A DNA stretch of 64,000 nt, taken from the NCBI RefSeq assembly GCF_016864195.1, contig NZ_CP045202.1, positions 682,001 to 746,000 of the forward strand. Reading direction: 5' to 3'. The stretch is from Dechloromonas sp. TW-R-39-2. Its GTDB lineage: Bacteria > Pseudomonadota > Gammaproteobacteria > Burkholderiales > Rhodocyclaceae. Below are positions 12,255-48,600 of the stretch, one piece after another; positions within the stretch are counted from its first letter, which is position 1; the number at the start of each line of letters is the position of its first letter. A model generated the notes under the pieces. The model was not told the DNA's origin, did not search any database, and saw only the letters and a program-made list of their open reading frames with translations. Both the position numbers and the translations under genes were made by a program.

Positions 12255-12266
12255 GCGGTCGACCGC
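12255..12266. repeat. Perfect copy of the GCGGTCGACCGC palindrome (spacer copy 1)
   Basis: A 12-base perfect palindrome in the spacer between minC and the divergent histidine kinase gene, continued on the right as AGCAG. One of four perfect copies in the window. Confidence 0.8.
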
Positions 12267-12367
12267 AGCAGTCTGCCAAAAACGACCTGCCGGCATTGCC
12301 AGATTCTCGGTTGTCACATTTCAAAATAAGGCAGAATGATCTTATCGTACAGGGCAGGGATGATCCG

Positions 12368-14353
12368 GTGAGCAAGCTGTCGTTGCGGCAGGTGATGATT
12401 CTGGGGGTCGGTCTCGGCATTTTCTTGCCGGTGCTTTTCCTCGCCCCATGGCTGGTTCATAACCGCTACCATCAAGAACTCGAACTGCGTATTCATGCGC
12501 CGTTGGCTCAGTATGCCGACATGCTCTCGCATGCGATGAGTGGCCCGTTGTGGAATGTCGATGCTCCTTCTGCACTACCGCTGGTCAATGCCATTCTGAG
12601 TAATCAGGATGTGGTCAGCATTTCGGTAGATGACCAGGCACTTGGTTATTTCGTTCATAGCGAACATCCGGAAAGGCGGAGTGGCGGAAGTGTGCAGGCC
12701 AAGCGCGATGTGATGCACAACGACAAAGTAATCGGCCAGGTGAGAATCGAATTGACCACCAGTCGAATCGAAGCGCAATTGCTGGAGGATGCGCTGCGTT
12801 TTGCTTTCGCCGTATTTGCCCAGATTGCCTTTTCCTTTGTCTTTATTCTCCTGTTGTTCGAGCACCGAATGATGGCGCCGCTGCGTGAGTTGCTCCGAGG
12901 GGCTGCACGCCTGGCGCGTGGCGAACTTGATCAGCCGGTTGTCTGGCAGCGCCCCGATGAACTCGGGGTGCTGGCCAAGGGGCTGGACGATATGCGGGAA
13001 AAACTGGGTGGTCTTTTTTCCGAGCGCCAGATACAGAACCTTGCGCTGCAAAGAGAATTGGCAGAGCGACAGCGGGTGGAAGATGAACTGCGGGTCAGCC
13101 AGGCCAAATTTGCTGTTATTTTCCAGTCCTCGCCGGTGCCTATCCTGGTTGCCAGAGCATCTGATGACTATACCAAGGTGGATGTGAACGATGCCTGGCT
13201 CAGGCAGTTTCACTGGCAGCGCGACGATGCCGGGGTGCAGGCCGCCCAGTGGCGGGCCTTGTGGCAGGAGCCGGATGAGCGCCAGGCGGTCATGGTGCAA
13301 ATCGAGCAGCACAACGAGGTGCACGATCACGAAGCCATGTTGCGCCGAGCCGATGAGGATGATTATCGGCTGTGCTCGATCTCTGGCCGGAAAATCGAGA
13401 TCGTTGACGATGTGCTTCTGATTCTGGCCGTTGAGGACATCACAGAAAAACGTCGCAACGAGCTTGAGGTACGCATGCTGAACGCGCGCCTTGAGGACCG
13501 GGTAGCCGAACGGACGCAGGCTTTGCAGAAAGCCAACGATGAACTGAGTGAAACATTGCAGACCTTGCAGCGGGCTCAGGGCGAGTTGCTGCGCTCCGAA
13601 AAGCTGGCGGCGCTTGGGTCGTTGGTGGCCGGTGTGGCGCATGAGTTGAATACGCCGATCGGCATCGGCGTCACCGTGGCCAGTACACTGCAGGAAGATA
13701 GTCTTGCCTTTGCCCGTGCGGCAAACGAAGGCTTGAGCCGTTCAAGGCTGAATCAGTTTGTCGACAAGACGCGCACGGCGAGCGATTTGCTGATGCGCAG
13801 CCTGGGACGTGCGGCTGAGCTGATCAGCAGTTTCAAGCAGGTTGCCGTTGACCAGACCAGCGCCCAGCGCCGGGTTTTCAAGCTGGCTGAGCTGGTCCAC
13901 GAAATCGTGCTGACGCTCGGGCCGAGCATTCGCAAGACCCCGTTTACCGTGAGCAGCGATATTCCAGCCGATATCGTGCTTGACAGTTTTCCCGGACATC
14001 TCGGGCAAGTGCTGATCAACTTGGTCAACAATGCCCTGGTGCACGCTTTTGAAGGTCAAGGTGAGGGACATGTCCTGATTGCGGCACAAGCAATCGACGC
14101 GGAACATATCCGGATTACGGTGAGCGATGATGGCAAGGGAATCGCCGAGCAGGACCTGCCGCGAATTTTCGATCCATTTTTTACTACCCGGCTTGGTCAG
14201 GGCGGCAGTGGATTGGGGCTGAACATTGTCCATAATCTGGTCAGCGGACCTTTGCGCGGCAGCATTTCAGTGAGCAGTATCCCCACCGTTGGAACCACAT
14301 TCACCCTGCAGTTGCAGCGTATCGGGCAGGAAACGAGCGATTGCAGCCTGTAG
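12368..14353 (+). CDS. Membrane sensor histidine kinase with HAMP and PAS domains
   Basis: A 661 aa sensor kinase. A first membrane span (about 8-30) and a second (about 137-160) enclose a periplasmic sensor region; a HAMP linker follows (about 161-215), then a PAS-like domain (about 245-370), a coiled coil, and the kinase core. The phospho-accepting His is in GVAHELNTPIGIG (residue 425). The ATP-binding domain shows LVNNALVHAF, DDGKGI and GGSGLGLNIV. The start is set at GTG 12368, behind GGCAGGGA; the frame is open to 12242 but the extra segment runs through the palindrome and looks non-coding. No receiver or response regulator is adjacent, so it is an orphan kinase. The neighbour is a solute-binding protein on the other strand. 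Confidence 0.85.
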   Translation: MSKLSLRQVMILGVGLGIFLPVLFLAPWLVHNRYHQELELRIHAPLAQYADMLSHAMSGPLWNVDAPSALPLVNAILSNQDVVSISVDDQALGYFVHSEHPERRSGGSVQAKRDVMHNDKVIGQVRIELTTSRIEAQLLEDALRFAFAVFAQIAFSFVFILLLFEHRMMAPLRELLRGAARLARGELDQPVVWQRPDELGVLAKGLDDMREKLGGLFSERQIQNLALQRELAERQRVEDELRVSQAKFAVIFQSSPVPILVARASDDYTKVDVNDAWLRQFHWQRDDAGVQAAQWRALWQEPDERQAVMVQIEQHNEVHDHEAMLRRADEDDYRLCSISGRKIEIVDDVLLILAVEDITEKRRNELEVRMLNARLEDRVAERTQALQKANDELSETLQTLQRAQGELLRSEKLAALGSLVAGVAHELNTPIGIGVTVASTLQEDSLAFARAANEGLSRSRLNQFVDKTRTASDLLMRSLGRAAELISSFKQVAVDQTSAQRRVFKLAELVHEIVLTLGPSIRKTPFTVSSDIPADIVLDSFPGHLGQVLINLVNNALVHAFEGQGEGHVLIAAQAIDAEHIRITVSDDGKGIAEQDLPRIFDPFFTTRLGQGGSGLGLNIVHNLVSGPLRGSISVSSIPTVGTTFTLQLQRIGQETSDCSL

Positions 14354-14377: not shown

Positions 14378-15202
14378 TTACTGGGGCGAGTCTGGCAGGT
14401 CGTTGAGCATCTGGCGGGCGTAGTCTGCGCCAATATGTCGGTTGTAGATGCGGAGCAGCGTTCCGTCGCTGCGCATTTTACGCAGTGTCGCATTCAGTAG
14501 CTGGAAGGTCTGGGGTGAGATCTGGCTGCGGGACAGTACCAGTCCATGGACCAATTGTTCGTTGGGGACCCAGTCCAGGGTGACCACCTTGTCTTCAAGC
14601 GCATAGCGTTTGAGCAAGGGGACAAAGGCGGTGGGCAGGGAAAGCATGGCGTCGATGCGCTGGTGCCGGAAAAGACGGTACACATCATCGATGTCGGCAA
14701 TTTCCTGGACCCGTCCCATGGCTCGCAGGCGATCCAGCCAGGCATCATAGGTCGGGCCGTGCCTGAATCCCTTGACGACCCCGATCCTGAGTGCAGGATC
14801 GTTCAGGAATGCATTCAAATCGACGATTCCTGCTGCTTGTTCGCGATGCAGGATGAGGCGGTTGCGTGCCGTGAAATAAGGAATGAACTGGGCGAATTTG
14901 AGCCGTTCCGGGCTGGCGATACCGGACACGGTGGCATCAAGCTTGCCGGTTTCAAGCTGGGTCCAGATGCGGACCCGTGATTCAAGACGGGTGTCGAAGG
15001 CGCACCCGCTGCGTTTGGCCAGTTCATCGACGACATCTTTGTCGATGCCTGTGTGCTCACCATTGGGCGTCCGTTGATAGAGCGCACCCAGCTCGTAGTA
15101 GGCAAGGCTGATGTTTTTGCCGCAGGGCGCGCCTGTAGCTGCGGTCGACACCAGCGAGCAGGCCAAAACGAAGGGGATGAATCCGGACGGGCGGAGTGCC
15201 AT
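14378..15202 (-). CDS. Periplasmic solute-binding protein, family 3 (amino-acid type)
   Basis: A 274 aa exported protein of the SBP_bac_3 type. The signal peptide is MALRPSGFIPFVLACSLVSTAATG, cut before APCGKN. The mature part has the two-lobe binding-protein pattern, with GIDKDVVDELAKRSG, the lobe-1 marker LDATVSGIASPERLKFAQF and the lobe-2 marker LRIGVVKGFRHG. Start placed at 15202; a longer frame to 15262 would put 20 polar residues before the signal peptide. No permease is adjacent, so it may serve a distant transporter, or act as a sensor accessory to the convergent histidine kinase, 24 bases away. Confidence 0.8.
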   Translation of the reverse strand: MALRPSGFIPFVLACSLVSTAATGAPCGKNISLAYYELGALYQRTPNGEHTGIDKDVVDELAKRSGCAFDTRLESRVRIWTQLETGKLDATVSGIASPERLKFAQFIPYFTARNRLILHREQAAGIVDLNAFLNDPALRIGVVKGFRHGPTYDAWLDRLRAMGRVQEIADIDDVYRLFRHQRIDAMLSLPTAFVPLLKRYALEDKVVTLDWVPNEQLVHGLVLSRSQISPQTFQLLNATLRKMRSDGTLLRIYNRHIGADYARQMLNDLPDSPQ

Positions 15203-15389: not shown

Positions 15390-17030
15390 ATGCTACAAAA
15401 GCTCTCCTCGTTCGCCGGTGTTCAAGGTCCAGTCGTGACTATCGTGATGGATGGTTACGGCATCCCGAAATCTGAAGTCGGTAGTGCCATCGCCGCGGCA
15501 CGCAAGCCGGTGCTCGATCGCCTGTTCGCCACCTGCCCGAATATCAGCTTGCGGGCACACGGCACCGCCGTCGGCATGCCGTCCGATGATGACATGGGGA
15601 ATTCCGAAGTCGGCCACAACGCGATCGGCGCCGGTCAGGTGTACAGCCAGGGGGCGGCACTGGTTGCCGGGGCGATTGCTTCCGGTGCCATCTGGCAGGG
15701 TGAGGCGTGGCAACAGATCATCGCCGGTGCCAAGGCTGGGCGTGGCGTGGTCCATATGATCGGCCTGTTTTCGGATGGCAACGTACACAGCCATATCGAC
15801 CACCTCAAGGCGATGGTCGTGCAAGCCCGGGCCGAAGGTGTGCGTACGGTTCGTATCCATGCCCTGCTTGATGGGCGCGATGTGCCGGAAACCAGTGCGC
15901 TGGACTACGTCGTTCCCTTCGAAAGTTTCCTGGCCGGCCTGAATGGCGCCGATTTCGATGCGCGCATTGCTTCTGGCGGCGGACGTCAGCACATCACGAT
16001 GGATCGTTACGATGCCAATTGGGCGATGGTCGAGGCTGGCTGGAAAACGCATGTGCTGGGCGAGGGCCAGCAGTTCACCAACGCGCTTGCTGCGGTCAAC
16101 GGCCTGCGCGAGCAAAATCCGGGCACGATCGACCAGGATCTGCCGGCCTTTGTCATCGGTGAAAATGGCCAGCCAATCGGTCGTGTCGAAGATGGTGATT
16201 CGGTGGTTTTCTTCAATTTCCGCGGCGACCGCGCGATTGAAATCACCCGCGCCTTCGAAGAAGCTGCCTTCGATAAATTCGACCGTGTCCGCTGGCCCAA
16301 GGTGACCTATGCCGGCATGCTGCAATATGACGGTGACCTGAAGTTGCCGGCTCGCTTCCTGGTTGCGCCGCCAGCGATCAAGGACACCACTGGCGAGTGG
16401 TTCGCCAAATCCGGAATCAGCCAGTTCGCCTGCTCTGAAACGCAGAAATTCGGCCATGTGACTTATTTCTGGAACGGCAATCGCTCCGGCAAATTCGACG
16501 GCGAAACCTGGCTGGAAGTGCCGAGCGACGTGGTGCCCTTTGAACAGCGTCCGTGGATGAAGGCCGCTGAAATTGCCGATGCCATGGTGGCGGCGATCCA
16601 GTCCGGTCAGTACCGGACCCTGCGGTGCAATTTCGCCAATGGCGACATGGTTGGGCATACCGGAAATTTCCGCGCGGCCACCATGGCGGTCGAGGCGGTC
16701 GACCTGGCGCTCGGGCGTGTTTTGCAAGCACTTGAAGCGGCCGGGGGCGTCGCGTTGATTACGGCTGACCACGGCAATGCCGACGAAATGTACGAACTCG
16801 ACAAAAAGACCAAGCAGCCGGCGCAGAATCCCGATGGCTCCTTCCAGGCCAAGACCGCGCACACCCTGAACCCCGTGCCGCTCATCCTGGCTGACTATGC
16901 CACGGGCGGCAAGCTGGGCCTTAAGCCGGTGGACAAGGCCGGTTTGTCGAATATTGCGGCAACGGTAGCCAACCTGCTGGGGCTTGAAAAGCATGCCGCA
17001 TGGGATGAAAGCTTGCTCGACGTGCGCTGA
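15390..17030 (+). CDS. gpmI: 2,3-bisphosphoglycerate-independent phosphoglycerate mutase, plant/protist-type
   Basis: A 546 aa cofactor-independent phosphoglycerate mutase that interconverts 3- and 2-phosphoglycerate using two metal ions. The metal site opens with VMDGYGI, and the phosphorylated Ser is in DDDMGNSEVGHNAIGAG (Ser about residue 72). Other marks are HALLDGRDVPETS, NFRGDRAIE and the C-terminal TADHGNADEM. It is longer than the 514 aa E. coli enzyme. The wording PSDDDMGNSEVGHNAIGAG and an insertion after TADHGNADEMYELD resemble plant and trypanosomatid enzymes. The start ATG 15390 is set by alignment; the frame is open far upstream across the divergent promoter region. Confidence 0.93.
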   Translation: MLQKLSSFAGVQGPVVTIVMDGYGIPKSEVGSAIAAARKPVLDRLFATCPNISLRAHGTAVGMPSDDDMGNSEVGHNAIGAGQVYSQGAALVAGAIASGAIWQGEAWQQIIAGAKAGRGVVHMIGLFSDGNVHSHIDHLKAMVVQARAEGVRTVRIHALLDGRDVPETSALDYVVPFESFLAGLNGADFDARIASGGGRQHITMDRYDANWAMVEAGWKTHVLGEGQQFTNALAAVNGLREQNPGTIDQDLPAFVIGENGQPIGRVEDGDSVVFFNFRGDRAIEITRAFEEAAFDKFDRVRWPKVTYAGMLQYDGDLKLPARFLVAPPAIKDTTGEWFAKSGISQFACSETQKFGHVTYFWNGNRSGKFDGETWLEVPSDVVPFEQRPWMKAAEIADAMVAAIQSGQYRTLRCNFANGDMVGHTGNFRAATMAVEAVDLALGRVLQALEAAGGVALITADHGNADEMYELDKKTKQPAQNPDGSFQAKTAHTLNPVPLILADYATGGKLGLKPVDKAGLSNIAATVANLLGLEKHAAWDESLLDVR

Positions 17031-18729: not shown

Positions 18730-19486
18730 GCCGATGATTTCGGCGCTTGATATCCACAAGCAGTTTGCGGGTGTCGAGGTGCTCAAGGGCGTTTCGCTGG
18801 AGTTGGGGAAGGGCGAAGTCGTTGCCGTGATCGGCCCGTCCGGTTCGGGGAAAAGCACTTTCCTGCGCTGCATGAACCAACTTGAGACGATTGATCGCGG
18901 TCAACTGGTCATCGAAGGCGAAATGCTGGCCAGTACGGATGCGCAAGGGCTTTGCCGCTATGTTCCGGAAGCCGAGGCGCGACGCATCTGTCGCAAAATG
19001 GGCATGGTTTTCCAGCAGTTCAACCTTTTTCCGCATCTGACCGTGTTGCAGAACATCATCGAAGCACCACTGACCGTCAAGGGCATGCCCCGCGATGCGG
19101 CCGTTCCGTTGGCCGAGGCGCTGCTGCGCAAGGTTGGTTTGCTCGACAAGCGCGACAGTTATCCCTCGCGCCTTTCCGGTGGCCAGAAGCAGCGTGTGGC
19201 GATTGCCCGTGCGCTGGCGATGGAGCCGGACATCATGTTGTTCGACGAACCGACTTCGGCACTGGATCCGGAGTTGACCGGGGAAGTGCTGCGTACGATC
19301 CGGCAACTGGCCGATGAGCACATGACGATGCTGGTAGTGACGCACGAAATGGCTTTCGCCCGCGATGTGTCGAGCCGGGTGATCTTCATGGATGGTGGCC
19401 ATATCGTCGAGCAGGGGCCGCCCGGTGAGTTTTTTGCCAATCCACAGCAGGCACGGACCCGCGCTTTTCTCAATCACCTCGGCTGA
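18710..19486 (+). CDS. Amino acid ABC transporter ATP-binding protein (GlnQ type)
   Basis: A 258 aa ATPase of the polar amino acid uptake class. Walker A is GPSGSGKST (about residues 44-52), the Q-loop lies in MVFQQFNLFPHLTVLQN, the signature is LSGGQKQRVAIARAL, Walker B is IMLFDEPTSALDPE, and the switch His is in VVTHEM. The start at 18710 overlaps the permease end and has GGAG 7 bases upstream; the ATG at 18719 is a second possibility. It energises uptake with the preceding permease and lipoprotein. Confidence 0.95.
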   Translation: MPSMTTEPMISALDIHKQFAGVEVLKGVSLELGKGEVVAVIGPSGSGKSTFLRCMNQLETIDRGQLVIEGEMLASTDAQGLCRYVPEAEARRICRKMGMVFQQFNLFPHLTVLQNIIEAPLTVKGMPRDAAVPLAEALLRKVGLLDKRDSYPSRLSGGQKQRVAIARALAMEPDIMLFDEPTSALDPELTGEVLRTIRQLADEHMTMLVVTHEMAFARDVSSRVIFMDGGHIVEQGPPGEFFANPQQARTRAFLNHLG

Positions 19487-19615: not shown

Positions 19616-20374
19616 ATGTTCGAACTCCTGCTCTCGCCCGAAATCTGGATAGCTTTTTTGACGTTGACCGCACTGGAGCTGGTGCTCGGCATCGACAACA
19701 TCATTTTCATTTCCATCCTGGTCGACAAGTTGCCCAAGGCGCAGCAGGAAACGGCTCGACGTATCGGTCTGTTCCTGGCGATGTTCATGCGTATCGCATT
19801 GCTGCTGGTGCTGTCGTGGATTGTCGGCCTGACCGAGCCGGTGCTTACCTTGTTCGGTACCGGTTTTTCCGGGCGCGACCTGATTCTGGTCGGCGGCGGT
19901 CTGTTCCTGATCTGGAAGAGTACCGGCGAAGTGCACCAGTTGCTGGAGGGTGAGGAGGGCAGCGAGTCGCACAAGGTGGCTTCGAGTTTTGCCGGCGTGA
20001 TTGCCCAGATCATGGTCATCGACCTGGTCTTCTCACTTGATTCGATCATCACTGCCGTCGGCATGGTCAGCCAGGTGGGGGTGATGATTGCCGCCGTGGT
20101 CGCATCGGTCGGCTTGATGATGCTTTTTGCCCGCTCGATTGGCGAATTCGTCTCGAATCACCCGACCATCAAGATGCTGGCTCTTTCCTTCCTGGTGGTT
20201 GTGGGCGTCGTGCTGATTGCCGATGGTTTCGGGCACCACGTACCGAAGGGTTACATCTATTTCGCGATGGCTTTCTCGGTGGGTGTCGAGATGTTGAATA
20301 TCCGGATGCGCAAGAAAACCGTTGCTCCGGTTGATTTGCGCGAACCTTACGCCCGCCAGACGGGCGAGCACTGA
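19616..20374 (+). CDS. TerC family integral membrane protein
   Basis: A 252 aa membrane protein of the TerC/Alx/YgdQ family, linked elsewhere to manganese or other metal-ion export and to tellurium resistance. The family motifs with acidic residues inside membrane helices are present: LELVLGIDNIIFIS (about residues 19-32) and MVIDLVFSLDSIITAVGM (about 132-149). About seven membrane spans, with a short hydrophilic C terminus. An AGGA site lies about 8 bases before the ATG. It is monocistronic, facing an AraC-family gene that ends 20 bases past its stop. The transported ion cannot be assigned from sequence. Confidence 0.88.
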   Translation: MFELLLSPEIWIAFLTLTALELVLGIDNIIFISILVDKLPKAQQETARRIGLFLAMFMRIALLLVLSWIVGLTEPVLTLFGTGFSGRDLILVGGGLFLIWKSTGEVHQLLEGEEGSESHKVASSFAGVIAQIMVIDLVFSLDSIITAVGMVSQVGVMIAAVVASVGLMMLFARSIGEFVSNHPTIKMLALSFLVVVGVVLIADGFGHHVPKGYIYFAMAFSVGVEMLNIRMRKKTVAPVDLREPYARQTGEH

Positions 20375-20393: not shown

Positions 20394-21461
20394 CTAGTCG
20401 CGGCCGGCCCAGTGCCGACGATAGTGGACCGGTGCCATCCCGGTCCACTCGACAAAAGCACGATAAAACGCCGAGGTGTCGGCATAACCCAGATCGGCGG
20501 CAACCTGGGCAATCGAATCGCGGGTCTTGGTCAGGCGGGCCAGTGCCATGTCGCGGCGCAACGCATCCTTGATGCCTCGGAAACTGGAACCTTCTTCGTC
20601 CAGTCGGCGGTGAATGGTGCGTGGCGATAGATGCAGGCGATCCGCAATATTTTCCAGACTCAGCGTGTCGGGTAGCGCGGCACGCAACAGGTCGCGAACG
20701 CGAATGACCATTTCACGGTCGCGGCGGTACAGCGTCGTGATTTTGCCCGGTGCGCCGTTGAGAAAGGTGGTCAGTGCCGCTTCATCCCGCCGCACCGGCA
20801 GGTCGAGAAGATTGGCATTGAAGCTGGCGACCAGCGTGCCGTTGCCGCCCGGAAGCGTCGGTGCAAAGCGGGAGTCTTCGGTGAAGATGAGTGCGTAGTC
20901 GGCAAAGTGGGCCGGCTTGCGGTAGGGAAATATCACGCTGTCGAGACCGATGCCGCGTCCGGCCAGCCAGCAGGAAAGACCGTGCAGCAAACGCAGCAGC
21001 CATTCGAAAGCAAAGATGCGACCTGCATTTTCAGGATTGTCGGAAAGCCTTCGGGTTTCGCTGATGACCAACTCGGCACGTCCCTGGGTGCGGCGTACGC
21101 TGACCGCCAGATCGGGCAGCACGATATGCAGGAAGCGACAGGCCCGGGTCAGCGCTTCGGCCAGGGTTGGTGCGCTGAGGCAGGCCCGGCAAAGAAACTC
21201 GAAGCTGCCGAGGCGCATGGGCTGGGCAAAGAGTCCGAAGCCTTCGTCGTCCAGTTCCTGGTTCAGTCGGTTGTAAAGTGCCGCATAACGATCGACCGGA
21301 ATGCGACTGGCGGTGTCTGCAATATCAATCTCCAGTGCAGCCAGTAGCGGCGCCGGGTTGATGTCATGACGAGCCAGCCCGGCCAGCATCCCGGTAACAA
21401 ACCCCATCGCAACAGTGGTTTGCGTGCGGGTGTTTGAATTTTGATTGGTGCGATGCAGCAT
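20394..21461 (-). CDS. AraC family transcriptional regulator
   Basis: A 355 aa regulator of the long AraC type (OruR/ArgR-like). The N-terminal ligand-type domain (about 20-205) resembles the arabinose-binding domain of Pseudomonas OruR, and the C-terminal double helix-turn-helix contains LENIADRLHLSPRTIHRRLDEEGSSFRGIKDALRRD and VAADLGYADTSAFYRAFVEWTGMAPVHYR. It is divergent from icmF with a 140-base spacer, so it is the obvious candidate regulator of icmF, responding to a CoA-ester-linked metabolite. The start at 21461 (MLHRTN) is uncertain; the frame is open to 21536 but would run into the spacer palindrome. Confidence 0.85.
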   Translation of the reverse strand: MLHRTNQNSNTRTQTTVAMGFVTGMLAGLARHDINPAPLLAALEIDIADTASRIPVDRYAALYNRLNQELDDEGFGLFAQPMRLGSFEFLCRACLSAPTLAEALTRACRFLHIVLPDLAVSVRRTQGRAELVISETRRLSDNPENAGRIFAFEWLLRLLHGLSCWLAGRGIGLDSVIFPYRKPAHFADYALIFTEDSRFAPTLPGGNGTLVASFNANLLDLPVRRDEAALTTFLNGAPGKITTLYRRDREMVIRVRDLLRAALPDTLSLENIADRLHLSPRTIHRRLDEEGSSFRGIKDALRRDMALARLTKTRDSIAQVAADLGYADTSAFYRAFVEWTGMAPVHYRRHWAGRD

Positions 21462-21478
21462 TTTGCTTATTTTCGGTA

Positions 21479-21493
21479 GTCGACCGCAGTACT
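21479..21493. repeat. Half copy of the GTCGACCGC palindrome next to a CAGTACTG palindrome
   Basis: GTCGACCGC (21479-21487) merges into the perfect 8-base palindrome CAGTACTG (21486-21493) in the AraC-icmF divergent spacer. It could be an operator or one member of the dispersed repeat family. Confidence 0.5.
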
Positions 21494-21601: not shown

Positions 21602-24600
21602 ATGACCGATCTTTCCGTCGCCAAGAAATTGTCCCCGTACAAGCCCAAGAACAAGGTCCGCTTTGTGACGGCCGCCTCGCTGTTCGACGGCCATGACGCC
21701 TCGATCAACATCATGCGCCGGATCCTGCAGTCGACCGGTTCGGAAGTGATCCACCTCGGTCACAACCGCTCGGTGCAGGAGATCGTCAATGCCGCATTGC
21801 AGGAAGACGCCCAGGGCATCTGCATCACTTCCTACCAGGGCGGTCACGTCGAGTTCTTCAAGTACATGATCGACCTGCTCAAGGCCAATGGTGGCGAGAA
21901 CATCAAGGTCTTCGGCGGCGGTGGCGGCGTGATCGTTCCTTCGGAAATCAAGGAACTGCATGCTTACGGCGTGACCCGCATTTATGCCCCGGAAGATGGC
22001 GTGCATATGGGCCTGCAGGGCATGATCAATGAAGTTGTCCAGAATGCCGACTACGATGTCGCTGCTGACGGCGTGCCGAGTGTCGAGCAGGTGCTGGCCG
22101 GATTGAAGGCTGGCGACAAGCGTTTGCTGTCGCGTGTCATCACGTTGCTTGAAAATGGCGTTGCGCCCGCACTCAAGGAGCCGATTCTCAAGGCCGCGGC
22201 CGAACTGAACGTGCCGGTGCTCGGTATTACCGGTACCGGCGGTGCCGGCAAGTCGTCGCTGACCGACGAACTGGTCCGCCGCTTCCGCCTCGATCAGGAC
22301 GACAGCGTCAAGATCGGCCTTGTTTCGATCGACCCGTCGCGCAAGCGGACCGGTGGCGCCTTGCTCGGCGACCGCATCCGGATGAACGCCATCGAGCATC
22401 CGAACATTTTTATGCGCTCGCTGGCGACGCGCGATACCGGCAGCGAAATTTCCGCTGCCTTGCCGGAAGTCATCGCTGCCTGCAAGCTGGCCGGCTTCGA
22501 TCTGGTGATCGTTGAAACTTCCGGCATCGGTCAGGGCAATGCGGCGATTGTGCCGTTTGTCGATCTGTCGTTGTATGTCATGACGCCGGAGTTTGGCGCT
22601 GCTTCGCAGCTGGAAAAGATCGACATGCTCGACTTCGCCGATTTCGTCGCAATCAACAAGTTCGACCGCAAGGGCGCCGAAGATGCGCTGCGCGATGTGC
22701 GCAAGCAATACCAGCGTAACCGTGAGTTATTCACCCAGCCGACCGACGACATGCCGGTCTACGGCACGATGGCCGCCCGTTTTAACGACGATGGCGTCAC
22801 CGCGCTGTATCAGGCACTGGTTCCGCAGTTGCTCGAAAAAGGCCTTAAGCTGAAGGAAGGCCAGCTGCCGCTGGTCACCGTCAAGCAGTCGTCCAGCCAG
22901 CGCGCCATCGTGCCGGCGGCCCGTGTCCGTTACCTGGCTGAAATTGCCGATGCCGTGCGCGGTTACCATGCCCATACCGATGCCCAGGTGCAGATTGCCC
23001 GCGAGCGCCAGTCGCTGCGTGTTTCGTCGGCCATTTTCAAGGGGTGCGACAAGTCGACCGCGGATTTCGATGAACTGATCGCCTGGAAGGATGGCGAGCA
23101 GGATCCGAAGGCCAAGAAGCTGCTCGACATGTGGCCGGATACCGTTGCCGCTTACTCGGGCGACGAATACGTCGTCAAGATTCGTGACAAGGAAATCCGT
23201 ACCAAGCTGGTTTCCCAGTCGCTGTCCGGCACCAAGATCCGCAAGGTCATCCTGCCCAAGTTCGGCGACGATGGCGAAACCCTGCGTTTCCTGATGCGCG
23301 AGAATGTGCCCGGTTCTTTCCCCTACACCGCCGGCGTGTTTGCCTTCAAGCGCGAAGGTGAAGACCCGACCCGCATGTTCGCCGGCGAAGGCGACGCTTT
23401 CCGCACCAACCGCCGCTTCAAGCGCGTTTCCGAAGGCATGCCGGCGCATCGTCTTTCCACCGCTTTCGACTCGGTCACGCTGTACGGCTGCGACCCTGAC
23501 GAGCGTCCGGACATCTACGGCAAGATCGGCAACTCTGGCGTGTCGATTGCCACGCTCGACGACCTCAAGGTGCTTTACGACGGCTTCGATCTGCTCGCCC
23601 CGACCACCTCGGTGTCGATGACGATCAACGGCCCGGCGCCGATCATCCTCGCCTGTTTCTTCAACACCGCGATCGACCAGCAACTGGCCAAGTTCGAGAA
23701 AGACAACGGTCGTCGTCCGACCGAAGACGAAGCTGAAAAGATTCGTGAATGGGCGCTGGCAACCGTGCGCGGCACCGTGCAGGCCGACATCCTGAAGGAA
23801 GATCAAGGCCAGAACACCTGCATCTTCTCGACCGAATTCGCGCTCAAGATGATGGGCGACATTCAGGAATTCTTCGTCCATAACCAGGTGCAGAACTTCT
23901 ACTCGGTGTCGATCTCCGGCTATCACATCGCCGAAGCCGGGGCCAACCCGATCAGCCAGCTTGCCTTCACGCTGTCCAACGGCTTCACCTACGTTGAGAG
24001 CTACCTGGCGCGCGGCATGAAGATCGACGATTTCGCGCCCAATTTGTCCTTCTTCTTCTCCAACGGCATGGACCCGGAATACTCGGTGATTGGCCGCGTC
24101 GCCCGCCGCATCTGGGCCGTGGCGATGAAGAACAAGTACGGTGCCAACGAGCGTAGCCAGAAACTGAAGTACCACATCCAGACTTCTGGCCGTTCGCTGC
24201 ACGCCCAGGAAATGGACTTCAACGACATCCGCACGACGCTGCAGGCGCTGATCGCCATCTACGACAACTGCAACTCGCTGCACACCAACGCCTACGACGA
24301 AGCGATCACCACGCCGACCGAGGAATCCGTGCGTCGCGCCATGGCCATCCAATTGATCATCAACCGCGAGTGGGGCGTCGCCAAGAACGAGAACCCGAAC
24401 CAGGGCGCCTTCGTCATCGACGAACTGACCGATCTGGTCGAGGAAGCCGTGCTCAAGGAATTCGAAGCCATCGCCTCGCGCGGCGGCGTGCTTGGTGCCA
24501 TGGAAACCGGCTACCAGCGCGGCAAGATCCAGGAAGAGTCGATGTACTACGAGCACATGAAGCACGACGGCTCGTACCCGATCATCGGCGTCAATACCTT

Positions 24601-29654: not shown

Positions 29655-29676
29655 GTTGCCGATTTGGGCCGCTGTC

Positions 29677-37686: not shown

Positions 37687-37731
37687 TCCGCCTTGCCCTG
37701 AGCGGCTACTTTGCCATTCCGGGAGGTGCAA

Positions 37732-39006
37732 ATGAACGTTGCCACGGTCGACCGCGCAAAAACGGAGAAAACCAAGATGAGTTATTACGATCCGCTCGAA
37801 ACCCGCGATCCGGATGAGCGTGAGGCCGATCTGATGGACAAGCTGGCGCGTCAGATGGCGCACGCCAAGGAAACGACGCATTACTATTTCCAGGCACTGG
37901 CCGGCATCAATCCATTCGATTGCGTGACGCGCGAGGCGCTGGCCAAATTGCCGCTGACCCGCAAGCGCGACCTGATCGAGTTGCAGAAAAAAGCCCCGCC
38001 ATTTGGCGGCTTGAACGCCTTGCCGCGGAGCAAGGCCAAGCGGGTTTTTTCGTCGCCGGGCCCGATTTATGAGTTGCAGGGCAAGGAAATCGACCCGTGG
38101 CGCATGGCCCGGGTGCTCTATGCCGCCGGATTCAGAAGTGGCGATCTGGTGCATAACTGTTTTTCCTACCACTTCACGCCGGGTGCCTTTATTTTTGAAG
38201 GCGGTGCGCGCAAGTTGGGCTGCTCGGTTTTCCCCGGTGGCGTCGGGCAGACCGAGCAGCAGGTGCAGGCCATCGTCGACTTGCAGCCGGAAGGCTATGT
38301 CGGTACGCCTTCGTTTTTGCGCATCATCGTCGAGAAGGCCGAGGAAATGGGGGCCGATATCAGTTCGCTGAAGAAAGCCTGTGTCTCCGGTGAGGCCTTG
38401 CCGGGGATTACGCGTAACTGGCTCAAGGAGCGCGGCATTACGGTGCGCCAGTGTTACGCCACGGCGGATATCGGTGCGATCGGTTATGAGACGGATGCCG
38501 AAGAGGGATTGATTGTCGAAGAAGAATTGCTGGTCGAAATTGTTCGGCCCGGAACGGGTGATCCGGTTGAGCCCGGCGAGGTTGGCGAGATTGTCGTGAC
38601 CAGTTTCAACCCCGACTATCCGCTGATCCGCTTTGCAACCGGTGATCTGTCGGCGGTGATGGCCGGGCGTTCGCCTTGCGGGCGCAGCAATATTCGCCTC
38701 AAAGGCTGGATGGGGCGAGCCGACCAGACAACCAAGGTCAAGGGGATGTTCGTGCATCCCGAGCAGGTGGCCGACATCGCCCGGCGTCACCCCGAAATCC
38801 AGCGCATGCGTCTGGTGGTGGACAATCCGGGCGGCCAGGATCGGATGGTGCTGCATTGTGAAATTGGCTCTGGCAGCGAGGCCCTCGACAAGGCGCTGGT
38901 GGCCAGTTTGCGTGAGGTGACCAAGCTGCGCGGCGATGTGGCATTTACCACGCCGGGGGGCTTGCCCAACGATGGCAAGGTGATCGAAGATAGCCGGGTC
39001 TATTGA
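37732..39006 (+). CDS. Phenylacetate-CoA ligase-like adenylating protein with altered phosphate loop
   Basis: A 424 aa PaaK-family protein: LETRDPDEREADLMDKLARQM at the N terminus, GYVGTPSFLRIIVEKAEE, the DLSAV and LKGWMGRADQTTKVKGMFVHPEQV segments, and a C-terminal LPNDGKVIED lysine region. The canonical phosphate loop (SSGTTGKPT) is absent; the corresponding place reads FSSPGPIYELQG (about residues 104-115). ATP use may therefore differ from PaaK. GGGAGG lies 5 bases before ATG 37732; another ATG at 37777 (MSYYDPLET) aligns better with family starts and may be the true one. It follows the ligase-liv cluster and probably acts on the imported acid. Confidence 0.8.
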   Translation: MNVATVDRAKTEKTKMSYYDPLETRDPDEREADLMDKLARQMAHAKETTHYYFQALAGINPFDCVTREALAKLPLTRKRDLIELQKKAPPFGGLNALPRSKAKRVFSSPGPIYELQGKEIDPWRMARVLYAAGFRSGDLVHNCFSYHFTPGAFIFEGGARKLGCSVFPGGVGQTEQQVQAIVDLQPEGYVGTPSFLRIIVEKAEEMGADISSLKKACVSGEALPGITRNWLKERGITVRQCYATADIGAIGYETDAEEGLIVEEELLVEIVRPGTGDPVEPGEVGEIVVTSFNPDYPLIRFATGDLSAVMAGRSPCGRSNIRLKGWMGRADQTTKVKGMFVHPEQVADIARRHPEIQRMRLVVDNPGGQDRMVLHCEIGSGSEALDKALVASLREVTKLRGDVAFTTPGGLPNDGKVIEDSRVY

Positions 39007-39521: not shown

Positions 39522-40675
39522 GCCGGCCTGCGCCGCTGACCGGCATTCGCGTTCTCGATTTGACCCGCTTGCTACCGGGGCCGGTTGCGACCTTGCATCT
39601 GGCCGATCTTGGGGCTGAAGTCATCAAGATCGAAGATCCGCAGGTGGGGGATTACGCCCGTACGCTGGGGACGGGGGCCGGTGAGGATAGCGCCTACTTC
39701 AAGATGATCAATCGCAACAAGCAGGGCTTGCGGCTTGATCTGAAGAAGCCCGAGGGCGTCGAAATCTTTCTCCGCCTGGCCCGCGAGGCCGATGTGATTG
39801 TCGAGAGCTTTCGCCCCGGTGTGGTCGACAAGCTGGGGATCGGTTACGCAACCGTTGCGGCCCTGAATCCTAAGATTACCTACTGCTCGATCAGTGGTTA
39901 CGGTCAGGATGGTCCCTACAAGGACCTGGCCGGCCACGATATCAACTATCTCGGCTACGCCGGGGTGCTTGAGCAAATCGGACTGGAAGGCAGCAAGCCG
40001 GCGATTCCCAATTTCCAGATTGCCGACCTGCTGGGCGGTGCATTGACCGGCGTGATGGGGATTCTCGCGGCCGTGATCGATGCCGGGAAAACCGGGCAGG
40101 GGCGTTACATCGATGTCTCGATGACCGACAGTGTTCTGGCGCACACCTATTTCGCCATGCTGCGGCTGAACGATGCCGGCCGCTCGGCGCCACGCGGTAC
40201 CGATTTGCTTTCGGGCGGGCTGCCTTGCTATGCGACCTACCGCTGTGCCGATGGCAAGTACATGGCCGTCGGTGCGCTCGAAGGCAAGTTCTGGCAGTCC
40301 TGTTGCACCGTCCTGGCTCGGCCGGAGTGGGTCAAGCGTCAATGGGACAGCACTTTGCGGGCCGAGATGGAGGCGCTGTTTGCAACGCGCTCGCGTGATC
40401 AGTGGCATACCCTGTTTGCTGCGGTCGACTGCTGTGTCACGCCAATTCTGACGCCAGAGGAAGCCTTGTCGAACGAGCAATTGACGGCTCGCGGGATGGT
40501 CATTGAATCGCAGGGGCTGACCCAGTTTGCGCCACCGCTCAAAATGTCCGGTTTTCAGTTTGACGTGCGGCAGAATGCGCCGGCTGCCGGTGAGCACAAT
40601 CTCCCGATTCTCCAGGCGGCCGGTTATGGCGCAGCCGATATCCAGCGTTTGCAGGAAAGCGGCGCACTGGGCTGA
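39518..40675 (+). CDS. CaiB/BaiF family CoA-transferase
   Basis: A 385 aa class III CoA-transferase that moves CoA between acyl-CoA and a free acid. It opens LTGIRVLDLTRLLPGPVATLHLADLGAEVIKIEDP and contains NRNKQGLRLDLKKPEG, and SISGYGQDGPYKDLAGHDINYLG. The likely catalytic Asp is in FQIADLLGGALTGVMGI (about residue 172), the position of the active Asp in formyl-CoA transferase. It overlaps the previous stop by ATGA. Alpha-methylacyl-CoA racemases belong to the same fold family, so racemase activity cannot be excluded. The cluster context suits CoA recycling among carboxylic acids. Confidence 0.88.
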   Translation: MSRPAPLTGIRVLDLTRLLPGPVATLHLADLGAEVIKIEDPQVGDYARTLGTGAGEDSAYFKMINRNKQGLRLDLKKPEGVEIFLRLAREADVIVESFRPGVVDKLGIGYATVAALNPKITYCSISGYGQDGPYKDLAGHDINYLGYAGVLEQIGLEGSKPAIPNFQIADLLGGALTGVMGILAAVIDAGKTGQGRYIDVSMTDSVLAHTYFAMLRLNDAGRSAPRGTDLLSGGLPCYATYRCADGKYMAVGALEGKFWQSCCTVLARPEWVKRQWDSTLRAEMEALFATRSRDQWHTLFAAVDCCVTPILTPEEALSNEQLTARGMVIESQGLTQFAPPLKMSGFQFDVRQNAPAAGEHNLPILQAAGYGAADIQRLQESGALG

Positions 40676-42833: not shown

Positions 42834-44893
42834 AGCTGGGTCAGTAAAGCCCGCAGCCGGGCCGGTCGTATCGGTGTTTGCAGGCTGTGGGCGCCCGGTG
42901 GCAGTTCGCTTTGTCCTGCCTCGTGGACCACGATCAGCGGTGTGTCCTGCGTCAGGCGGGATGCTACGCTGGTGGCAACCGTACCGGCACAGATGAGAAC
43001 ACTGCCGTGTGGCAGGTATTCGGTCCCGTTGCCGGGGTCGGTCGTCACGCTGTAGTGCCAGCTCCTGATTTGTTCGGCGCAATCGATGATGGCTTGCGAA
43101 TCACCGATCAGATGCACCTTGCCGAGTGAAGCCTGCGGAGCTTCCAATACCTTGTGTTGCAGCGCCTGGCTGGCTTTGAGTTGCAGGGCGAAGGTGGTGC
43201 CGTCACCGAGGCGTGATTTCAGATTGACGGTGATGCCGAGCGCCCGCGTCAGCCGGTCAACGATCGACAGTCCCAATCCCAATCCCTTGTTTTGTTCGCG
43301 AGCCGAATTGCCGACCTGATAAAACTCGGCAAAGATCGCGGCCTGATGTTCCGGGGCAATGCCCATGCCGCTATCCCGCACTTCAACCAGGACATGGGTG
43401 CCACGTTTCCGGGCGGTGACCAGAATGCGTCCTCCGGGCGGGGTGTAGCGCAACGAATTGGAAACCAGGTTGGCCAGTATTCGCTCGACCATGACCGGAT
43501 CGGACTCGACCCACAGATTGTTCGTTTTGAAACGCAGCTTGAGTTTGCGGTCGACCGCAGCACGCCGATATGAGTTGGCCAGGCGCTCAAATGTCGGGCC
43601 GAGTGGGAAACTGCGAACATCGGGTTTGATGCCGGCCACGTCGAGGCGGGAGATGTCGAGCAAGGAATCGAGCAGTTCGCCGAGGACGCTGGTCGAGGTG
43701 GCAATTTGCTCGGCCAGGCGGGGTAATTCATGGGCGGTGCCGCTACGCACCTGGCGCAGCAGATCGGTGGCAAAAAGCGAAAGGGCGTGCAGCGGTTGGC
43801 GCAAATCGTGGCTGGCAGCAGCCAGGAAGCGGCTTTTGGCCTTGTTGGCGCGCTCCGCCTCGTCTTTTTGTGCTGCCAGTTCGAGCGTGGCTTCCTTGAT
43901 GCGCTCTTCCAGGGTTTCGTGACTGGCGGCCAGGGCGCCGGTCATTGTCGTCATGTCACGGACTTGCCGGCGCACGAGCAGCGCACCGACCAGCAGGACA
44001 ACGGTGACCAGCAGGCCGAGGATGCTGAGTTCAAGCAGGCGGGTTTGCCAGTTGGCCAGCAAGGTGCTTTCAGGAATGACCGTCAGAATGCGCAGGTCGG
44101 GGAATCCGGGAACCGGCGAGACCGAAAGCAACAAGCCGTCAGCGGTGCTCAGGCCGCTGCTGAATGAATGGCCGCGCAGCTTGCCGTTGAACAGGATGTC
44201 GCTGGCGGGCATGCCGAGGACGGGGGATTGCCGGCTCAGATCGGTGGGCCGGCAGGAGGCGACGATCTGGCCCGCTGCGTTGATCAGGACGGCTTCAAAA
44301 TCATCGGCCAGGCGGTTGGGCCAGCAGAAGTCCTGCAGGTAGCCCGGCTCGATCGCACCGAGCGTGATGCCCGACAGCTGTTTGCCATCGCTGCTGATGC
44401 GGCGGGCGATGGCATAGCTGTAGCGACCGTTGTTGCGGTCGATATAGGGGCCGTAGGTCGTTCCTTCGGCACCATTTTCGAGGATGGTGAAGTAGGGGCG
44501 GTCGCGGATGTTGATCGGCGGCGGGGGGAATTGCGTTGAAATGAATCGCTGGTTGCCCTGGCGGTCAAAAACGATCAGGTCGCGCAACTGAGGCATGGCG
44601 CGCGAGTGGCGCTGGGCGACATATTCCCAGCCGCTGCTCGCCTCCCAGGTTTCCCAATTGCGTCGGTTGCCGGCCAGGTCGGTGGAAATCTCGCGCAGGG
44701 TGACGTCGACCGCCTCGAAGGCGCGCGCCGTGTGTTCGGCCATCATGATGCCGAAATGCTGCAAGCGTTGTTCGCCGGCCTCGATGTCGCGATGCCGGGC
44801 AACCAGCAGGTCGGCCAGAAATCCCCCAAGCACCGTCAGCGTACTGATCAGCGCGACGAACAGGGCAAGGGTTTCCGGCTTCCTTTTCAGCAT
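42803..44893 (-). CDS. Membrane sensor histidine kinase with degenerate C-terminal receiver
   Basis: A 696 aa kinase. Membrane spans lie near 10-30 and 285-310 and enclose a Cache-type periplasmic domain with YGPYIDRNNGRYSYAIARRI. The kinase core has the His in AASHDLRQPLHALSLF (about 361) and the ATPase with GLGLGLSIVDRLTRAL. After about residue 585 follows a receiver-like domain whose acceptor position reads SVLICAGTVAT (no Asp) and whose conserved Lys is replaced (SLQTPIRPARLRALL), so it cannot be phosphorylated in the usual way. The gene starts 6 bases after the methyltransferase stop and ends overlapping the convergent response regulator. Confidence 0.88.
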   Translation of the reverse strand: MLKRKPETLALFVALISTLTVLGGFLADLLVARHRDIEAGEQRLQHFGIMMAEHTARAFEAVDVTLREISTDLAGNRRNWETWEASSGWEYVAQRHSRAMPQLRDLIVFDRQGNQRFISTQFPPPPINIRDRPYFTILENGAEGTTYGPYIDRNNGRYSYAIARRISSDGKQLSGITLGAIEPGYLQDFCWPNRLADDFEAVLINAAGQIVASCRPTDLSRQSPVLGMPASDILFNGKLRGHSFSSGLSTADGLLLSVSPVPGFPDLRILTVIPESTLLANWQTRLLELSILGLLVTVVLLVGALLVRRQVRDMTTMTGALAASHETLEERIKEATLELAAQKDEAERANKAKSRFLAAASHDLRQPLHALSLFATDLLRQVRSGTAHELPRLAEQIATSTSVLGELLDSLLDISRLDVAGIKPDVRSFPLGPTFERLANSYRRAAVDRKLKLRFKTNNLWVESDPVMVERILANLVSNSLRYTPPGGRILVTARKRGTHVLVEVRDSGMGIAPEHQAAIFAEFYQVGNSAREQNKGLGLGLSIVDRLTRALGITVNLKSRLGDGTTFALQLKASQALQHKVLEAPQASLGKVHLIGDSQAIIDCAEQIRSWHYSVTTDPGNGTEYLPHGSVLICAGTVATSVASRLTQDTPLIVVHEAGQSELPPGAHSLQTPIRPARLRALLTQLQKTLSKSIP
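43547..43558. repeat. Perfect copy of the GCGGTCGACCGC palindrome (coding copy 1)
   Basis: The 12-base palindrome lies inside the kinase coding sequence and continues as AGCACGCC, like the right flanks at 12255 and 29677. Confidence 0.8.
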
Positions 44894-45649: not shown

Positions 45650-45658
45650 CCGCCGATT

Positions 45659-48600
45659 TTATGCCATTAGCTCACTTCTGATGCTTTCTCGTTGTTTTTT
45701 AGTCTGCTCGGCAGCCTGGTGACGAACGTAGCCGAAGCCGCGGACGGCTGCCGGCCAGTCGGCCAGTTGGCGGGCCAGCGTATTTGCTTTGCCGTGATGG
45801 CTGGCGATCAGTTCGAGGTCGGCCTCATAGTCCCTGAGCAGTTCGCGGTCGACGGCCCTGTCCGGGCTGAAACGGAATGGATCGAGCCAGGTGTTGCGCC
45901 ATGTCCGTGCCTTGGCCAGCCATTTCAGCAAAACTATCCAACGCGGGCCGAAGCTGCGTTTGGCGGGGCGGCCATCCAGCCCGCGTTGCTGAAAAATGGG
46001 CGGTGAAAAATGGAAGTTGAGCCGGAAGTCACCATCGAATTTTTCACCCAGTCGCTCAATGAAATCGCCCTCGGTGTACAGGCGAGCCACCTCGTACTCA
46101 TCCTTCGGTGCCAGGAGTCGGGCATATTGGATGGCGACGCTGCGGGTCAGCGTGTCGTCGCCCAGCGCACGAATGCGGCTGATGCGCTGGCGGTAGGCTG
46201 CGGCCAGCTTCTCATCCTGATAGGCCGCGAGGTGGACGCTGCGGTTTGCAATCAGCTCGTCCAGCGTTTGTGGTTGGCTGATATGGCCCGTTTCGGCAGT
46301 TTTCCGGGCGTCGACCGCGCGCTTGACCTCTTCGCCGTGCACGGCGCTGCGTCTTCCCCAGAGGAAAGCCTGGCGATTGGCCTCGACTGTCGTGCCGTTC
46401 AGTTCGATGGCCTTGTCCAGCGCGTCGGCTGAAACCGGAACCAGGCCTTGTTGCCAGGCATGGCCGAGGAGCAGCATGTTGGCGTAGAGCGCATCACCCA
46501 TCAGGACGGTGGCCAGGTGCTGCGCGTCGATGAAGGTGACGGCACTTTCACCCAGCGTGTCGCGCAGTTGTTGCTCAAGGCCGTTTTGCGGGAATTGCCA
46601 GTCGCGATTGCGGGTGAACTCGGCGGTCGGCGTTGCCGTGCAACTGACGACGGCACGGGTTCGTCCTTCCAGCATTTTCGATCGGGCTTCGTTGCTGGCG
46701 CTGACCACCAGATCGCTGCCGATCAGGGCATGCGCTTCACCGGTTGCAATGCGGGCGGCGTGAATGTCCTCCGGTCGGTCAGCGATGCGCAGATGGGAAA
46801 AGACGGCGCCGTACTTTTGCGCCAGACCGGTCATGTCGAGCGTCGAGACGCCTTTGCCGTCGAGATGGGCGGCCATGCCGAGCAGGGCGCCTAGCGTGGT
46901 GACGCCCATGCCGCCGACGCCGTTGAGCAGCAGGTTGTAGGGGCGATGCGTGGCCGGCAGCGTCGGTTCGGGCAAAACCGGCCAGTTGTCGCGGTCGACC
47001 GCGAGTTTCGTGCCTTTTTTGAGTTGTCCTCCCTCGATGCTGACAAAACTCGGGCAGAAGCCTTTGAGGCAGGAAAAGTCCTGGTTGCAGGATGACTGAT
47101 CGATCTGGCGCTTGGTGCCGAAAGCTGTTTCGACCGGCACGATGGAAAGGCAGTTGGATTGCACTGAACAATCGCCGCAGCCCTCGCAAACGGCCTCGTT
47201 GATCACCAGGCGCCGCTGGATTGCCGGCATTTTGCCGCGTTTACGGCGGCGGCGAGCTTCCGTCGCACAGACCTGATCGTAGATCAGCACCGAGACGCCG
47301 GGCCAGGTGCGCAGTTCGCGCTGCACGGCGTCGAGCTCATCGCGATGACGCACCGGCACGTTGGGGGCGAGGTCAGTGATCTCGGCGTATTTCTCCGGCT
47401 CGGCAGCGACGATGACCATCTTGCCGACACCTTCGGCTTCCAGCTGGCGGGTGATTCGGGCGACGCTCAAAATGCCGTCTACCGGCTGACCGCCGGTCAT
47501 CGCGACGGCGTCGTTGTAGAGAATCTTGTAGGTGATCGGTACCTTGGCGGCGATTGACTGGCGGATGGCGAGCAAGCCGGAGTGGAAATAGGTGCCGTCA
47601 CCGAGGTTGGCGAAGATGTGCTTTTCCTCGGTGAACGGTGCCTGCCCGACCCAGGGCACGCCTTCGCCGCCCATGTGGGTGAAGGTCGAGGTGCTGCGGT
47701 CCATCCAGGTCACCATGTAATGGCAGCCGATGCCGGCGACGGCGCGCGAGCCGTCCGGCACTTTCGTGGACGTGTTGTGCGGGCAGCCGGAGCAGAAATG
47801 CGGTTTGCGCTCGGCCAGCACGATGGGCATCTTTGCCGCCTGTTGCTTGGCTTCCAGCATTTTCAGTCGCGCCGCGATGGCCGGCGAGGTGAAGAAACGG
47901 CCGATGCGTTGGGCGATGACGCGCGCGATGCTCGCCACCGGCAGTTCGCCAGCGGCCGGCAACAGCCAGTCGCTGTGCGCCAGGTAGCCGGCATCACCCG
48001 CGGTCCACTCGCCTTTTTCGTCGAATTTGCCGACGATGCGTGGGCGAACGTCGTCGCGCCAGTTGTACAACTCTTCCTTCAATTGGTATTCGAGCAACTG
48101 GCGCTTTTCCTCGACGACGAGGATTTCCTCCAGCCCTTCGGCGAAGTGGCGCACGCCTTCCGGCTCGAGCGGCCAGACCATGCCGACCTTGTACAGGCGC
48201 AGCCCGATCTGCGCGGCAAGCGCCTCGTCGATGCCGAGTTCGTCCAGCGCCTGGCGCACGTCGAGGTAACTCTTGCCAGCCGTGAGGATGCCGAGCCGGG
48301 GTGCCGGCGAATCGATGATCACACGGTCGAGCCGGTTGGCTCGGCAATAAGCCAGCGCGGCGTAAAGTTTGTGGTTGAGCAGGCGCGCTTCCTGAACCAG
48401 CGGCGGGTCGGGCCAGCGGATGTTGAGGCCGTCGGGCGGCAAAGTGAAATCGGTCGGCATCCTGATGTCGACCGCAGTCATGTCGATATTCACCGAGGCC
48501 GAGGTTTCAACCGTGTCGGCCAGCGCCTTGAAGGCCACCCAGCAGCCGGAATAGCGGCTCATCGCCCAGCCGTGCAGGCCGAAGTCGAGGTATTCCTGGA

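Follow-up and report, generated by a model that had tools for sequence, protein, structure and literature searches.

Three described systems of short, abundant genomic repeats come closest to the element analysed here. In Pasteurellaceae, the uptake signal sequence (USS) comprises a core in which GCGGT is constant, a 5' part that separates two dialects, Hin AAGTGCGGT and Apl ACAAGCGGT, and AT-rich downstream segments at helical spacing (PMC1626085, PMC12616744), the first AT box lying just 3' of the core and the second about 12 positions further (PMC1626085). The DNA uptake sequences (DUS) of Neisseriaceae are the second system (PMC3630211), and the third is HIP1 of cyanobacteria, an 8-base palindrome, GCGATCGC, tied to orphan methyltransferases (PMC4390886). 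We describe here a repeat dispersed through a 64,000-nucleotide stretch (hereafter "the window") that corresponds to positions 682001-746000 of NZ_CP045202.1, the single 3,462,267-base contig of Dechloromonas sp. TW-R-39-2, which belongs to the GTDB genus Azonexus (Azonexus/Dechloromonas) of environmental Betaproteobacteria. A previous reading of the window from its sequence only had signalled this repeat as an over-represented palindrome, GCGGTCGACCGC, comparable to HIP1. We suggest that the repeats form a new lineage of candidate DNA uptake sequences with a USS-like architecture, a proposal to which we attach a probability of about 0.77.

The enriched unit is asymmetric and consists of two parts, TG[CT][CT]GCGGTC[GA]AC and, after about 16 mostly free bases, an AT-rich box; we call "core" the word TGYYGCGGTCRAC or its dialect forms. 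The unit was profiled in 864 kb of the 3.46 Mb genome, i.e. 40 evenly spaced 20 kb stretches (one of which includes 2,500 N) plus the window, and this sample also served for all the comparisons with a fourth-order Markov model. The most enriched words under this model were GCGGTCGAC (238 copies for 38 expected), GCGGTCAAC (104 for 20) and GTCGACCGCAGCA (22 for 0.14). Most single substitutions in GTCGACCGC brought it down to 0.3-1.6 times expectation, the tolerated ones being T (5.1-fold), A (4.1-fold) or G (2.3-fold) at the third base and T (2.6-fold) at the last. With positions numbered relative to the core's initial G, 87, 91 and 79% of the bases at +26, +27 and +28 are A or T, for a background of 42%, and all three are A/T in 311 of the 460 core copies. 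A second AT rise at +16/+17 is weak, and G/C is favoured at +12, +21 and +30, approximately one helical turn apart. This profile is alike in coding copies (n=272), in spacer copies (n=69) and in both gene orientations. The best downstream three-base AT mean reaches 0.86 for GCGGTCGAC and 0.87 for GCGGTCAAC, compared with at most 0.51 for 126 unrelated frequent 9-mers (16 of an initial 142 were dropped as they share six bases with the motif). From +31 to +49 the flank is at background (information of at most 0.08 bits), and the copies are therefore not remnants of a longer repeat. Over the whole genome, the dialect-independent pattern RCGGTCRAC-N16-WWW gives 698 + 713 copies (1411, about 1,400) for 14 + 16 (30) with the same pattern read backwards, which was the control for all genome counts, and GTYGACCGCRRCA gives 286 + 268 (554) for 2 + 2 (4). 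No Rfam family had a match anywhere in the 64-kb window.

The palindrome is a by-product of two such copies overlapping head to head on GTCGAC. Its four perfect occurrences, at 12255, 29677, 43547 and 46991, were all found where the sequence-only reading had placed them and, together with eight one-mismatch copies, make 12 matches in the window, for a mean of 0.64 and a maximum of 3 in 100 dinucleotide shuffles; the "about fifteen" half sites of each kind correspond to 14 GCGGTCGAC on the + strand and 15 on the - strand. The 12-mer occurs 79 times genome-wide (3 for the reversed control) and 18 times in the 864 kb, where 0.6 were expected from the Markov model. Unrelated palindromes behave differently under the same model: GCGATCGC was seen 23 times for 46 expected and CGGCGCCG 107 times for 102, while CGATATCG (81 for 50) and CGAATTCG (52 for 30) are mildly high and come close to the level of the 8-base core GGTCGACC (122 for 62), so that the strong excess sits in the longer forms. 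At 10 and 12 bases, neither this model nor an enrichment of unrelated palindromes accounts for the excess. GTCGAC alone is enriched under first- and second-order models and is unenriched at fourth order (561 for 607 expected). The k-mer and profile analysis led us to abandon the palindrome as the unit, since the most enriched words are asymmetric and 247 of the 301 RCGGTCGAC copies lie outside palindromic pairs. The other 54 are in head-to-head overlapping pairs, for 12.8 expected from the columns of non-overlapping copies. Among neighbouring cores (460 in all), we counted 27 overlapping pairs and 3 non-overlapping inverted pairs within 60 bp.

The earlier statement that copies are found in spacers as well as in various reading frames is correct, all six frames being used, unequally. 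Genes were called with a simple caller (657 genes, 80% coding across the 864 kb), whose "spacer" and "coding" labels are partly wrong, chiefly near gene starts. With these labels, GTYGACCGC is about as dense in called genes (0.395 per kb) as outside them (0.398), and the rarer GTYGACCGT reaches a higher density in genes, 0.146 per kb for 0.098 in the remaining sequence. The codon-aware expectation, derived from 60 synonymous permutations within 656 called genes, is exceeded by GTYGACCGCRRCA (100 copies for 3.8 +- 1.8) and by GTYGACCGC (273 for 47.6 +- 6.0), while the reversed control word stays at this null (58 for 50.9 +- 8.5). The whole-genome counts of GTYGACCGCRRCA (286 and 268) are even between the two orientations, and there is no strand bias in the sample, with 170 copies in one orientation and 172 in the other; by 500 kb bin, the origin not being mapped, the counts are 27/30, 34/35, 28/24, 21/29, 22/21, 21/17 and 17/16.

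The motif is confined to one genus and is bimodal within it. Among 76 Azonexus genomes, 40 contain 412 to 2072 copies of RCGGTCRAC-N16-WWW and 36 contain 11 to 183, the reversed control giving 2 to 21 per strand. Outside the genus, all of the 368 sampled genomes of the class have at most 24 copies per strand; in the draw from the order (399 genomes), GTYGACCGYRNCA gives at most 22 per strand in the 393 genomes outside the genus, 7 of the same family included, both sets being even draws from larger groups. Eleven other named genomes (Azospira, Accumulibacter, Zoogloea, Aromatoleum and others) have 2-22 per strand. The 16 named genomes among the 76 are divided into nine rich (678-1495 copies, including A. 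hydrophilus ZS02 and Dechloromonas sp. Dech2017) and seven poor ones (24-164, including Dechloromonas sp. CZR5). Eight genomes of the low group (108-183 copies), and a few more at 72-79, are above their own controls, and their copies may be relics or imports.

Samples of 152 to 864 kb per genome were profiled for dialects. Five rich genomes, with 0.49-0.63 cores per kb, share CGGTC[GA]AC and a strong AT box at +26..+28 (AT 0.75-0.99) and differ in their 5' part; four poor genomes have 0.03-0.14 cores per kb and lack enrichment. The 5' part is TG[CT][CT]G (TGYYGCGGTC, with a TG[CT][CT] extension) in the own genome (G000), T[GT]TTG (T[GT]TTGCGGTC) in A. hydrophilus ZS02 (G008), CA (CACGGTC; CACGGTCGAC) in G042, and G044 and G045 have [AG][GA]CGGTC with C favoured at -3. 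The G042 dialect is confirmed elsewhere by the counts of GTYGACCGTG, which are 630 + 613 in G042, 662 + 640 in G011, 180 + 170 in the own genome and 7-51 per strand in the 36 poor genomes. On the tree of one metabolic protein (22 rows, i.e. 21 of 80 loci plus the window, with the unclassified row L114 in no group), the rich genomes are not one clade: there are 6 label changes, at least 2 of them forced by well supported branches, and the rich label shows no clear clustering, with as few changes in 110 of 500 shuffles. This scatter fits repeated loss, a single gene from a possibly transforming genus being weak evidence. Along the same gene, two sites each occur at the same alignment position in 11 of the 22 rows, across dialects.

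By its sequence, the motif is neither the Pasteurellaceae USS nor the Neisseriaceae DUS and would be a third kind; a literature search, thin on subscription journals, gave nothing contrary to this for Rhodocyclales, Dechloromonas or Betaproteobacteria. It shares with the USS a short core containing GCGGT (in the own and G008 dialects and in part of the G044 and G045 copies), a dialect difference located in the 5' part of the core and, less clearly, 3' AT-rich DNA at helical spacing, with one strong box and one weak segment in the own genome. Like USS copies, these repeats lie on both strands, in genes and in spacers, and, as in Pasteurellaceae, some relatives have defects in competence genes (described after Table 1). 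They differ from the USS in that the core continues with CRAC and is not AAGTGCGGT or ACAAGCGGT, the G042 dialect has ACGGT, the genus is betaproteobacterial, the density is lower and the dialects within one genus are more numerous. As with DUS, the dialect varies from species to species, some relatives lack an abundant repeat, overlapping dyad pairs are in excess, as in Simonsiella muelleri, and a ComP_DUS-family pilin is present; unlike in DUS genomes, where they are numerous, non-overlapping inverted pairs are rare here (PMC3630211). Nor is the motif a continuous one of the GCCGTCTGAA type without flanks.

Of the three roles that the sequence-only reading had envisaged (methylation, chromosome organisation or uptake), the last is the one we favour. 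The repeats would be short self-labels preferred by a surface type IV pilus DNA receptor during natural transformation: a minor pilin would bind the core and its 5' extension, the AT box would make the entering DNA easier to bend or melt, as has been proposed for Haemophilus, the tags would accumulate through the preferred uptake of tagged DNA and its recombination, and species losing the preference would keep few of them. We consider possible, with somewhat more doubt than belief, that sequence-specific uptake evolved a third time, in an environmental betaproteobacterial genus, and reached the Haemophilus solution (a core containing GCGGT, a variable 5' dialect and helically spaced AT-rich DNA). 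The own genome contains a full-length comEC frame, in which DUF4131, Competence and metallo-beta-lactamase domains were recognised, as well as an operon of minor pilins, pilY1-fimT(GspH)-pilV-pilW-pilX-pilE, whose PilE matches Pfam ComP_DUS (PF16732). In a search of solved structures by sequence, this PilE matched type IV pilins including 4noa PilE, and the FimT-like protein gave weak pilin matches only. ComN/PpdA, the Pasteurellaceae receptor candidate of 2025, is annotated in the FimT/GspH family (PMC12616744). Among 12 relatives compared, the own type of minor pilin operon is present in G048 and G045 and other types in the rest.

Several observations weigh against an uptake function. comEC is present in 71 of the 76 genomes (51 of the 51 good ones), rich and poor alike, ComP_DUS is present in 70 of 76, motif-poor ones included, and the type of minor pilin operon has no link with dialect in the 12 relatives, so that no receptor is identified. 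A literature search, thin on subscription journals, gave no report of natural competence in Azonexus/Dechloromonas. USS and DUS have a density of approximately one per kb, and that of the present motif is lower. Unlike in the USS, the main AT box lies 25-27 bases past the first G of GCGGT, the nearer +16/+17 segment being weak, and 45 chance-level cores from the samples of the four motif-poor genomes have AT fractions of 0.73, 0.36 and 0.67 at +26..+28, so that some unevenness persists without the motif. The two shared sites of the metabolic gene include 3 and 2 motif-poor rows, and a third shared position, in 7 rows, includes two Accumulibacter outgroups; protein conservation therefore explains part of the sharing. 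Finally, depletion of the motif in foreign DNA is suggestive and is not cleanly demonstrated, because core density follows GC in the own-genome sample (Spearman 0.60) and a ribosomal protein region is nearly motif-free too: the two stretches without GTYGACCGC are one restriction-modification island and this ribosomal protein region (L024), which has 1 core per 20 kb, as compared with 1 and 2 in the island stretches L053 and L034.

The repeats could alternatively be the genome-wide site of a chromosomal DNA-binding protein (nucleoid, segregation or global regulator) selected at about one per 2 kb, with the AT box as a part of a bipartite site. A bipartite site at fixed spacing suits contact on one helix face and the excess of head-to-head overlaps would suit a dimer, but low counts in 36 of 76 congeners together with 5' dialects are unusual for a chromosome-maintenance site, genes hold copies as often as other DNA and strand bias is absent, which makes this explanation rather unlikely. 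We regard it as very improbable that a HIP1-like palindrome is maintained here through a solitary methyltransferase or a mismatch-type process at GTCGAC. The very high copy number, the palindromic nature of GTCGAC, the existence of a palindromic form of the repeat and the excess of overlapping pairs recall HIP1, yet the unit is asymmetric and bipartite, with a distant AT box on one side for which methylation leaves no role, GTCGAC itself is not enriched at fourth order and GTTGACCGC (5.1-fold) is enriched nearly as much as GTCGACCGC (6.3-fold). The comparison with HIP1 is consequently not supported, and neither GTCGAC nor GGTCGACC occurs in the text of the HIP1 paper (PMC4390886).

High copy number in genes and spacers would also be expected of a recombination or replication-direction signal, similar to Chi or to the FtsK-orienting polar sequences (KOPS), but the orientation is balanced in all seven 500 kb bins of the sample (origin not mapped), which renders such a signal still less probable. 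Hundreds of repeats, some of them in spacers, could suggest a dispersed mobile repeat or its remnants (repetitive extragenic palindromes, REP, or miniature inverted-repeat transposable elements, MITE); with the flank past the AT box at background, copies within reading frames in all six frames and constrained bases split by free ones, we give hardly any credit to this origin. On the features tested, the HIP1-, Chi- and REP-like readings fail. Least credible of all is that chance or the codon usage of a GC-rich genome produced the motif: some frames are indeed favoured by amino-acid context, but Markov, shuffle, codon and reversed-pattern controls fail to yield the motif, and its load is equal outside called genes.

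If sequence-specific uptake did arise a third time and reach the Haemophilus solution, the geometry would be imposed by a common mode of recognition of bent DNA by FimT/ComN-type minor pilins, and a genus comprising 40 carriers, several dialects and 36 low-copy species would make the co-evolution of receptor and signal traceable in detail. As a further example of this bipartite layout, the repeats would serve to test whether AT boxes are a physical need of DNA entry and would open a new way to the receptor; on this reading, Azonexus and Dechloromonas species are predicted to be naturally transformable and to exchange DNA by dialect. The copies present in the window are listed in Table 1.

Table 1. 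Copies of the motif in the window. Coordinates run from the 5' end of the motif to the AT box; the last column gives the number of A/T among the three AT-box positions +26..+28.
Feature	Coordinates	Strand	A/T
Copy	2960..2991	+	3/3
Copy	3188..3219	+	2/3
Copy	4922..4953	-	3/3
Copy	6446..6477	+	2/3
Copy, ACGGTCAAC variant	7742..7773	-	2/3
Left-pointing copy, overlapping pair centred on palindrome 12255-12266	12239..12270	-	3/3
Right-pointing copy, same pair	12251..12282	+	3/3
Copy	15137..15168	+	3/3
Copy, GCGGTCAAC variant	16088..16119	+	2/3
Copy	16691..16722	+	3/3
Copy, GCGGTCAAC variant	18893..18924	+	3/3
Copy, GCGGTCAAC variant	19644..19675	-	2/3
Copy within called frame, near its uncertain start	21460..21491	-	3/3
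Copy	23034..23065	-	3/3
Copy, GCGGTCAAC variant	25214..25245	+	1/3
Copy, spacer	26346..26377	-	3/3
Left-pointing copy, pair around palindrome 29677-29688, spacer flanked by convergent called genes	29661..29692	-	2/3
Right-pointing copy, same pair	29673..29704	+	3/3
Copy	31249..31280	+	1/3
Copy, GCGGTCAAC variant, site without called gene (simple caller)	34590..34621	-	3/3
Copy	35797..35828	+	2/3
Copy	36811..36842	+	3/3
Left-pointing copy, overlapping pair 37728-37771	37728..37759	-	1/3
Right-pointing copy, same pair, ACGGTCGAC variant	37740..37771	+	3/3
Copy	40417..40448	+	2/3
Left-pointing copy, pair around palindrome 43547-43558	43531..43562	-	2/3
Right-pointing copy, same pair	43543..43574	+	1/3
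Copy	44686..44717	-	3/3
Copy	45841..45872	+	3/3
Copy	46291..46322	-	3/3
Left-pointing copy, pair around palindrome 46991-47002	46975..47006	-	3/3
Right-pointing copy, same pair	46987..47018	+	3/3
Copy	48448..48479	-	3/3
Copy	49509..49540	-	3/3
Copy	51231..51262	-	3/3
Copy, ACGGTCAAC variant	52381..52412	+	3/3
Copy, GCGGTCAAC variant	52525..52556	+	3/3
Copy, ACGGTCGAC variant	58385..58416	-	3/3
Left-pointing copy, overlapping pair 61431-61474	61431..61462	-	3/3
Right-pointing copy, same pair, ACGGTCGAC variant	61443..61474	+	3/3
Copy, GCGGTCAAC variant	62962..62993	-	3/3

In two species, G079 and G002, some 33 kb of DNA splits the competence gene comEC, at a point of the Competence domain (about residue 28) that is the same in both (L199 and L200, G079:C1:2217001-2255000; L201 and L202, G002:C33:108001-146000). 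Both insertions begin with a large serine recombinase, and the ten proteins scanned, all from the first 20 kb, include an AAA_13 ATPase and an FRG protein in G079 and, in G002, a CHAT-domain protein together with a type ISP restriction enzyme. The insert looks like a defence-carrying integrative element targeting comEC. The gene also seems broken or truncated in two motif-poor genomes (G060:C1:1959178-1959913 and G018:C8:1085724-1086371), and in motif-rich A. hydrophilus ZS02 (G008, C10 and C17) it is in two pieces with one stop; some of the broken frames in these three genomes may be due to contig ends.

Uneven distributions were observed in other genomes. Candidatus Accumulibacter sp. 66-26 (G486) has 41 copies in all, with clusters of 7 and 8 at C38:39389-51365 and C6:17522-53748, the pattern that import of DNA from a motif-rich relative would leave. 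In the motif-poor metagenome-assembled genome Dechloromonas aromatica HJP_bin19 (G043, identical to G475; 154 copies), runs of 9 copies each occur at C14:83429-91814 and C10:64595-79978 and would be relics or imported segments. Words such as CTACCCGCTA and AAGCCCCGGA are found about 21 times in a 100 kb sample of G042 (L061-L065), perhaps as a tandem repeat array.

The six own-genome stretches sparsest in the motif are L053, L024, L042, L034, L023 and L049, and genes were looked at in four of them. L053 (3287001-3307000; GC 0.52) encodes a type III restriction subunit, an impB/mucB-family polymerase and a NUDIX gene product, and the reading of translations adds a matching modification gene and UmuD- and DUF262-like genes. 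L034 (1643501-1663500) encodes a YqaJ-type viral recombinase, DUF932, a caspase-domain protein with a Sel1 repeat and a Sel1 repeat protein. L024 had been taken for a Mu-like prophage from its gene layout, an assignment which was dropped when 2 of the 8 scanned proteins (697 and 396 residues) matched the PHROGs elongation factor family; its short collinear genes fit an EF-G/EF-Tu/ribosomal protein region. Finally, positions 21602-24865 of the window encode a 1087-residue protein that fuses B12-binding, MeaB-type GTPase and methylmalonyl-CoA mutase domains, a layout which we take to be of the IcmF type.

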